Source: Thermoproteota archaeon | Lineage (GTDB): Archaea; Korarchaeota; JAOZGF01; JAOZFZ01 | Reading direction: 5' to 3' | Length of the DNA stretch: 64,000 nucleotides | Assembly (NCBI GenBank): GCA_027492035.1 | Contig: JAOZFT010000004.1 | Location: 310,001-374,000, forward strand | In this document: one piece after another, positions 5,948 to 45,549 of the stretch | How positions within the stretch are numbered: position 1 is the first letter of the stretch | Layout of the letters: every line of letters begins with the position of its first letter | Program-made: the position numbers and the translations under genes | Notes under the pieces: generated by a model | Told to the model about the DNA's origin: nothing | What the model saw: only the letters and a program-made list of their open reading frames with translations | The model's database searches: none

Positions 5948-6068
5948 GGGCCCGTGGCTTAGCCTGGCTGGAGCGCTTGCCTTATAACGACGTTTATCGT
6001 CTTTTGAAGGCGGCGTTTTCCTTTCATGAGAAAGCAAGAGGTCGCGGGTTCGAATCCCGCCGGGCCCA
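5948..6068 (+). tRNA. tRNA-Ile with long intron, apparent anticodon UAU
   Basis: Acceptor GGGCCCG/CGGGCCC, D-arm and T-arm match the tRNA-Ile(GAU) at 20206. Anticodon stem CTTGC/GCAAG encloses 53 nt starting CTTATAA. Keeping a 7-nt loop gives anticodon TAT and an intron of about 46 nt that contains two hairpins, so it could be two introns. If real, AUA is read by UAU rather than by a modified CAU. Confidence 0.8.
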
Positions 6069-6163: not shown

Positions 6164-6238
6164 AGCGGGGTGGGGAAGTCAGGTTATCCCGCGGGGCTCA
6201 TAACCCCGAGGTCGGTGGTTCAAATCCACCCCCCGCTA
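6164..6238 (+). tRNA. Initiator tRNA-Met(CAU)
   Basis: Acceptor AGCGGGG/CCCCGCT with A1:U72, anticodon stem CGGGG/CCCCG carrying the initiator G-C pairs, loop CTCATAA. No intron. The last tRNA before the PAC2-family gene. Confidence 0.96.
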
Positions 6239-13855: not shown

Positions 13856-13954
13856 GCCGCCGTAGCTCAGCCGGTAGAGCGAGGGACTTGTAATCCCTTG
13901 GTCGAGGGTTCAAAAACCTGTGTGTTTCCCAGGTTGGGAATCCCTCCGGCGGCT
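13856..13954 (+). tRNA. tRNA-Thr(UGU) with T-loop intron
   Basis: Acceptor GCCGCCG/CGGCGGC, U73, anticodon arm AGGGA-CTTGTAA-TCCCT. The T-stem GAGGG/CCCTC encloses 33 nt instead of 7, so about 26 nt must be removed; the insertion holds an AACCTG/CAGGTT hairpin. The anticodon loop itself is uninterrupted. Confidence 0.92.
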
Positions 13955-13969
13955 GTCCCTATCTCTCCA

Positions 13970-14060
13970 GGGGCCGTGGGGTAGCTAGGTCTAGCCTTCG
14001 AGACTTGGGCTCTCGAGAGTGTTCATCCGAGAAACCCCGGTTCAAATCCGGGCGGCCCCA
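13970..14060 (+). tRNA. tRNA-Pro(UGG) with variable-region intron
   Basis: Acceptor GGGGCCG/CGGCCCC, anticodon arm CGAGA-CTTGGGC-TCTCG, T-arm CCCGG-TTCAAAT-CCGGG. Between anticodon stem and T-stem are 20 nt instead of about 5, so an intron of about 15 nt near position 45 is inferred. D-stem has one G-G mismatch. Confidence 0.85.
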
Positions 14061-16973: not shown

Positions 16974-17066
16974 TGCGGGGGGAGGGATTTGAACCCTCGC
17001 AGGACTGAACCACCAGATCTCTAATCCTTGAGTCTGGCGCCTTTAACCTGGCTCGGCAACCCCCGC
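16974..17066 (-). tRNA. tRNA-Leu(CAA) with very short insertion
   Basis: Acceptor GCGGGGG/CCCCCGC, A73, variable arm of about 14 nt, T-arm GAGGG-TTCAAAT-CCCTC. Anticodon stem CCAGA/TCTGG encloses 15 nt (CTCAAGGATTAGAGA); a normal loop leaves an 8-nt insertion after position 37. If an intron, it is shorter than usual. Confidence 0.85.
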
Positions 17067-17653: not shown

Positions 17654-17747
17654 CGGGCCCGGCGGGATTTTCATCCATTATAGAATTTTGAACCCGCAAT
17701 CTTCGGCTCCGGAGGCCGAAATGTTGTCCTTTTTACACCACGGGCCC
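17654..17747 (-). tRNA. tRNA-Arg(CCG) with T-loop intron
   Basis: Acceptor GGGCCCG/CGGGCCC, G73, anticodon arm TCGGC-CTCCGGA-GCCGA, D-stem GTGT/ACAT. The T-stem GCGGG/CCCGC encloses 26 nt, leaving an intron of about 19 nt after TTCAAA, the same place as in Thr(UGU), eMet and Gly(UCC). Confidence 0.9.
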
Positions 17748-23974: not shown

Positions 23975-24078
23975 AACGGTAACTATTTAAGAAAAGAGAA
24001 ACCTTTAAAAACCATTGACGAAACTTAATATCCTAACCTTTAAGACTTAAAAATGTGTTTTGTTATCTTTTCCTGTAT

Positions 24079-24211
24079 GCCGGGGTGGCTCAGGCGGTTA
24101 GTTTTTAAAAGAAACTAAAGCGCCAGACTCATAAACCTAGACGGAAAAAGTCGAGACATCTGGAGGTCGCGGGTTCGAACGGTCAGCTGCCTGAAAAACC
24201 CGCCCCCGGCA
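24079..24211 (+). tRNA. Elongator tRNA-Met(CAU) with three introns
   Basis: Acceptor GCCGGGG/CCCCGGC, A73. D-arm: GGTTAG and AGCGCC are separated by about 17 nt. Anticodon stem CCAGA/TCTGG encloses 31 nt starting CTCATAA, so about 24 nt are extra. T-stem GCGGG/CCCGC encloses 25 nt starting TTCGAA, so about 18 nt are extra. Removing all three yields a standard elongator tRNA-Met. Confidence 0.93.
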
Positions 24212-24292
24212 CTTTTACTTCTTTACTTTCTGTTCGTTCCTTTTCTTTAAGCCTAAGCCTTAGCTTTTATCATAGGTTTTGGGAAGTTAATA

Positions 24293-24390
24293 AGCCCTGG
24301 GAGGGATTCGAACCCTCGGCCTGCTGCTTTCTAGTTCGTTACGAGGATCGGCTTCTTGAATCAGCCGCTCTACCGCTAAGCTACCAGGGC
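24293..24390 (-). tRNA. tRNA-Thr(CGU) with two introns
   Basis: Acceptor GCCCTGG/CCAGGGC with U73, as in the other tRNA-Thr. A normal cloverleaf needs two deletions: about 15 nt between positions 30 and 31 in the anticodon stem and about 11 nt after position 37. The product has stem GCTGC/GCAGC and loop CTCGTAA and aligns position by position with tRNA-Thr(UGU). Reading it without the first deletion gives no plausible tRNA. Confidence 0.75.
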
Positions 24391-45430: not shown

Positions 45431-45549
45431 GCGCCCGTCGTCTAGTCATGGCTTAAAATGTTTTTAAGCCGCTAAGGGACTAGGACACAGGCCCTCCAAG
45501 CCTGTAACGCGGGTTCAAATGAAGTAATCTGAAAATCCCGCCGGGCGCA
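45431..45549 (+). tRNA. tRNA-Gly(UCC) with D-loop and T-loop introns
   Basis: Acceptor GCGCCCG/CGGGCGC, A73, anticodon arm CAGGC-CCTCCAA-GCCTG, so position 33 is C rather than U. The D-loop carries about 29 extra nt with a 9-bp GGCTTAAAA/TTTTAAGCC hairpin. The T-loop carries about 16 extra nt after TTCAAA. Confidence 0.9.

Follow-up and report, generated by a model that had tools for sequence, protein, structure and literature searches.

A 133-nt locus in the draft genome of an uncultured archaeon of hot-vent type is very probably a real elongator tRNA-Met gene interrupted by three introns, which the splicing endonuclease EndA would cut out at BHB-type folds and whose flanking exons the RtcB ligase would join. 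The anatomy of the gene, the assembly's lack of any intact copy, the genes for both enzymes and the recurrence of the intron sites are established by direct observation, and the steps of maturation are proposed on that basis. The gene lies in a 64,000-nt stretch of DNA (hereafter the window), inside a 666-kb contig (C9) of a 42-contig, 1.87-Mb draft genome with a completeness of 93.3%.

Gene structure and detection

Both ARAGORN and the Rfam tRNA model proved blind to the unspliced gene: ARAGORN called no tRNA, and RF00005 gave no match even at E<=5. We therefore wrote a parser that fits DNA to a cloverleaf and allows for introns, provided that each has at least 3/4 core pairs between two 3-nt bulges. 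Applied to the gene, it clearly favoured one parse, which places introns of 17, 24 and 18 nt at sites 22/23, 37/38 and 59/60 (Table 1), all penalties coming from the intron terms and none from the mature tRNA. The spliced 74-nt sequence is a cloverleaf without mismatch and with all conserved bases present, and ARAGORN calls it tRNA-Met(cat). The first-pass annotation had proposed an elongator tRNA-Met with insertions of about 17, 24 and 18 nt in the D-loop, anticodon loop and T-loop, more than 40 percent of it intron; the parse bears out these sizes and positions, and introns make up 59/133 nt (44%) of the gene. Inside the score limit, the sole alternative parse puts the T-loop junction at 56/57 and ranks lower, and none of 4000 versions with the three inserts shuffled in place parsed as well as the real gene. 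Over both strands of the whole window, the parser gave 12 matches at threshold, every one with a full tRNA cloverleaf.

Table 1. Coordinates of the elongator tRNA-Met gene, its parts and its flanking signals in the window
Feature	Position	Strand	Description	Sequence or basis
Elongator tRNA-Met(CAU) gene	24079..24211	+	133 nt, three introns, 74-nt mature tRNA	parser; ARAGORN on spliced form
Exon 1	24079..24101	+	acceptor 5' strand, D-arm up to position 22	GCCGGGGTGGCTCAGGCGGTTAG
Intron 1	24102..24118	+	17 nt, site 22/23, D-arm	tttttaaaagaaactaa
Exon 2	24119..24133	+	positions 23-37, anticodon CAT	AGCGCCAGACTCATA
Intron 2	24134..24157	+	24 nt, canonical site 37/38	aacctagacggaaaaagtcgagac
Exon 3	24158..24179	+	positions 38-59	ATCTGGAGGTCGCGGGTTCGAA
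Intron 3	24180..24197	+	18 nt, site 59/60, T-loop	cggtcagctgcctgaaaa
Exon 4	24198..24211	+	positions 60-73: 3' T-stem, acceptor 3' strand, discriminator A	ACCCGCCCCCGGCA
Probable TATA box	24046..24054	+	ACTTAAAAA region, ~25-33 nt upstream of the gene	inferred from sequence
Possible transcription terminator	24212..24230	+	T-rich stretch downstream of the gene	inferred from sequence

An archaeal BHB intron is recognised by a 4-bp helix between 3-nt bulges, with the cut after the second bulge base. This arrangement is present at all three sites, at 37/38 in relaxed form only, and removal of the three introns restores a normal tRNA. The 22/23 intron has the core GGUU/AACU (4/4 pairs, one of them G-U) and the bulges AG^U and AA^A, and the 37/38 intron has the core CUCA/CGAG (3/4 pairs plus an A.C mismatch) and the bulges UA^A and AC^A. 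At 59/60, the core UUCG/UGAA (4/4 pairs, one G-U) and the bulges AA^C and AA^A are accompanied by an inner helix (GGU/GCC) and by the T-stem as outer helix, giving a full BHB. Energy evaluation of the bare RNA indicated that the 59/60 BHB stabilises the cloverleaf by 3.8 kcal/mol and the 37/38 BHB by 2.6 kcal/mol, and that the D-arm BHB is approximately neutral (-25.5 vs -25.8 kcal/mol with the D-arm open). Isolated minimum-energy folds do not contain the D-arm BHB, which loses to a 9-bp hairpin within and beside the intron; the D-arm intron is therefore the least certain of the three.

Isotype and copy number

Without the three G-C pairs of an initiator, the anticodon stem (CCAGA/UCUGG), together with the ARAGORN call, confirms the elongator isotype. 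The initiator tRNA-Met is a separate intronless gene (6164-6238) and the only other CAU tRNA found. Moreover, with tRNA-Ile(UAU) encoded at 5948-6068 (one intron of 46 nt), the genome has no need of a tRNA-Ile2(CAU), and a third CAU tRNA is thus not expected; the tRNA-Ile(UAU) situation has been described likewise for Korarchaeum cryptofilum (PMC8450103). With at most one mismatch, the 5' signature of the elongator tRNA-Met matches only once genome-wide, the intronless anticodon arm GACTCATAATC has zero matches across the genome, and the variable/T-arm string matches only its own gene and tRNA-Ile(UAU). A second intact elongator gene, which the first-pass annotation had named as the observation that would overturn its reading, was not found in this search of the 93.3%-complete assembly, and a copy hidden outside the assembly is unlikely.

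Splicing machinery and proposed maturation

EndA is encoded by a single gene (C9:443 kb, ~379 aa) with two PF01974 repeats in one frame, and the genome holds no further PF01974 match that could represent a second subunit gene. Two PF01974 matches were likewise found in 27 of the 28 other genomes of the phylum set. The second half of the protein is a catalytic-type domain that aligns with the crenarchaeal catalytic subunit, and its residues K229-P230-K231 are aligned to the KPR of 3ajv/3p1z, at the Crenarchaea-specific loop (CSL) of the A. pernix EndA. The enzyme thus combines the Lys-Pro/Val-Lys/Arg pattern of the CSL with the alpha2 design (one gene, two fused PF01974 repeats) and is predicted to act as a homodimer; its sequence suggests that its specificity may be broad. 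CSL-type loops have been tied to relaxed specificity by engineering and structural work (PMC12397907), and an alpha2 endonuclease with a CSL has already been proposed for Korarchaeota (PMC4033280). The RtcB ligase gene lies at C9:453 kb (E = 5.5e-174).

We propose that the gene is transcribed as a single pre-tRNA, in which EndA would recognise a BHB-type fold at each site and cut after positions 22, 37 and 59 and at the matching 3' sites. RtcB would then join the exon ends, and the resulting 74-nt elongator tRNA-Met would decode internal AUG codons; maturation would take six EndA cuts and three RtcB joins in total. The BHB of the D-arm intron draws on bases of the D-loop and D-stem for both bulges and for the 5' strand of the core helix, so this intron probably must be removed before the D-stem can form.

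Recurrence of the intron sites in other tRNAs and in relatives

Site 22/23 is reused in tRNA-Lys(CTT) of the same genome (core AGGU/GCCU) and in tRNA-Ala(GGC) of the nearest relative, a genome of the same family (G001; core UGGA/UCCA). Across the three genes, GGUU/AACU, AGGU/GCCU and UGGA/UCCA, the core helix changes on both strands in a compensatory manner, and the bulges AG^ and A[AG]^A recur in tRNA-Lys(CTT) and in the tRNA-Ala(GGC) of G001. Site 59/60 is also occupied in tRNA-Lys(TTT), Thr(TGT), Arg(CCG), Gly(TCC) and Gly(GCC) of the same genome, and introns of the same design interrupt several tRNAs of G001 and of another relative, G017. Recent transposition of one 59/60 intron is unsupported, as lengths range from 12 to 36 nt and the sequences differ wherever pairing in the core helix does not dictate the base.

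The elongator tRNA-Met genes of related genomes carry different combinations of these sites. That of the K. cryptofilum-like genome G004 (L046) has the 37/38 intron only, as do those of other f3 genomes; that of G017 has introns at 37/38 and 59/60; and that of G001 has D-arm and 59/60 inserts with an unbroken anticodon arm. The D-arm of the G001 gene is ambiguous, holding either one 33-nt intron or two (18 + 12 nt) in addition to the intron at 59/60, and we do not claim it as a second three-intron tRNA-Met gene. Given these differing combinations, the 37/38 intron looks old, the 22/23 and 59/60 introns look like later gains, and the 37/38 intron appears to have been lost in G001. In a further related genome, G002, a tRNA-Lys(CUU) gene (L161, G002:C236:4209-4316) may hold three introns of ~16, 10 and 11 nt within 108 nt, with a poor parser score.

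Alternative explanations

The doubt about the D-arm can be put as a reading in which there are just two introns, in the anticodon loop and the T-loop, and the insert of the D-arm is retained as an extended D-loop hairpin or removed in some other way. The 9-bp hairpin of the insert and its flanks, which outcompetes the BHB in folding, speaks for such a reading; however, once the insert is removed the D-stem pairs perfectly (GCUC/GAGC) and closes a normal loop, AGGCGGUUA, whereas retention costs the D-stem the pair C13-G22. Site 22/23 is moreover a known archaeal intron site (PMC4090602), and its recurrence with compensatory core pairs in tRNA-Lys(CTT) and in the tRNA-Ala(GGC) of G001 argues for an intron here as well. 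We thus regard retention or another route of removal as improbable.

Rather less credible still is that the locus is a decaying pseudogene with an intact elongator tRNA-Met in the unassembled part of the genome. The assembly is incomplete and tRNA-Arg(TCG) likewise was not found in it, but decay would not be expected to leave every stem and conserved base of the 74-nt product intact, each of the three inserts occupies a known intron site and has a BHB core, and orthologues in the same phylum bear the same kinds of insert. That the introns are a sequencing or binning artefact can be almost entirely discounted: although the draft assembly behind the window is split into 42 contigs, the gene is internal to its 666-kb contig, ~36 of 45 tRNA genes are interrupted in like style, and separately assembled related genomes agree. 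A genuine gene with three introns remains the reading that we strongly prefer.

tRNA introns across the genome and its relatives

We compiled a tRNA inventory from searches and sequence stretches, with some genes read by eye. It comprises ~45 tRNA genes, ~36 of them interrupted, with ~50 introns in all (~1.1 per gene); ~13 genes have at least two introns, and tRNA-Met alone has three. The sole tRNA missing from the inventory of the 93.3%-complete assembly is tRNA-Arg(TCG). For comparison, Thermoproteales average 0.84 introns per tRNA gene and archaea overall 0.21 (PMC8450103). With the exception of tRNA-Cys on C26, every tRNA gene found maps to contig C9 (666 kb of 1.87 Mb); either tRNA genes are clustered in one part of the genome, or some other contigs may be foreign to it.

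Several further genes of the genome are interrupted as well. ARAGORN and Rfam both miss tRNA-Gly(UCC) (45431-45549, +), which has a 28-nt D-loop intron and 16 nt at 59/60, and ARAGORN misses tRNA-Thr(UGU) (13856-13954, +) and tRNA-Arg(CCG) (17654-17747, -), each with a lone 59/60 intron (26 and 19 nt, respectively). Adjoining the tRNA-Met gene, tRNA-Thr(CGU) (24293-24390, -) has introns of 15 nt in the anticodon stem (30/31) and 11 nt at 37/38. A likely 16-nt variable-loop intron with the core CUCG/CGAG is common to tRNA-Pro(UGG) (13970-14060, +) and Pro(CGG) (C9:276536-276626), and the apparent anticodon-loop intron of tRNA-Leu(CAA) (16974-17066, -) is unusually short at just 8 nt.

Relatives identified through EndA are MAGs titled 'Thermoproteota archaeon', namely Flange_M5_B4 (58% identity), INS_M21_B31 (47%) and B14_G2 ('Guay2' scaffold), and the comparisons point to a deep Korarchaeum-related lineage as the host. 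The same-phylum genome G004 is probably that of K. cryptofilum, with which its EndA design and Ile(UAU) feature agree. Most tRNA matches in this genome are 72-76 nt long, and its tRNA genes are hence largely intronless.

Discussion

Three introns also interrupt an elongator tRNA-Met gene of an alga, reportedly in a nucleomorph genome. As cited in PMC4090602, that gene (Kawach et al. 2005) shares isotype and intron number with ours but is eukaryotic, and some tRNA introns of the algal genome are given as only 3 nt long, with an unclear mode of splicing; the algal and archaeal genes are likely of independent origin. In the red alga Cyanidioschyzon merolae, tRNA-Ile(UAU) has one intron each in the D-, anticodon and T-arms, all of the hBHBh' type, and the D- and T-introns are thought to be removed ahead of the anticodon intron (PMC9602550). 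The layout is the same as in our tRNA-Met gene, whereas the isotype differs and the outer introns sit at 12/13 and 53/54 instead of 22/23 and 59/60.

Among archaea, three introns per tRNA are the known maximum in Thermoproteales (PMC4090602), as in tRNA-Glu(UUC) of Pyrobaculum calidifontis and tRNA-Pro(UGG) of P. islandicum (PMC4390854; PMC4090602). Like the gene described here, these are archaeal and combine one canonical with two non-canonical BHB introns, but they differ in isotype and sites (25/26, 37/38 and 56/57 in Pro(UGG)), and the two Pyrobaculum species use (alpha-beta)2 endonucleases whereas our host has a single-gene, two-repeat enzyme. Candidatus Korarchaeum cryptofilum, described as the sole alpha2 archaeon with non-canonical introns (PMC4033280), belongs to the same wider lineage and has the same EndA design (alpha2-type with CSL); in contrast, tRNA-Met of the K. 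cryptofilum-like genome G004 has the 37/38 intron alone, and long tRNA genes are few in that genome overall, against ~1.1 introns per gene here. Sites 22/23, 37/38 and 59/60 are each already known in archaea (PMC4033280; PMC4090602). Since multi-intron tRNA genes are known elsewhere, the tRNA-Met gene is a new example and not a new type. It comes from a lineage, and is accompanied by an enzyme type, for which the literature searched hardly documents multi-intron tRNAs; on tRNA introns of Korarchaeota MAGs, literature searches turned up nothing relevant.

On balance, we lean slightly towards the view that a deep Korarchaeum-related order reached Thermoproteales-like intron levels (~1.1 per gene, up to three) with a single-gene, two-repeat CSL endonuclease. 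If true, multi-intron tRNAs would not require a heterotetrameric endonuclease. The CSL-bearing EndA supports, beyond Thermoproteales, the published idea that acquisition of the loop is tied to the spread of introns. Because ARAGORN and RF00005 miss such genes, tRNA counts based on MAGs can be too low. The site combinations in relatives (37/38; 37/38 + 59/60; D + 59/60; all three) allow intron gain and loss to be traced within one isotype, and the tRNA-Met gene offers a compact test case, in which an essential tRNA depends on six cuts and three joins, presumably by one type of EndA.
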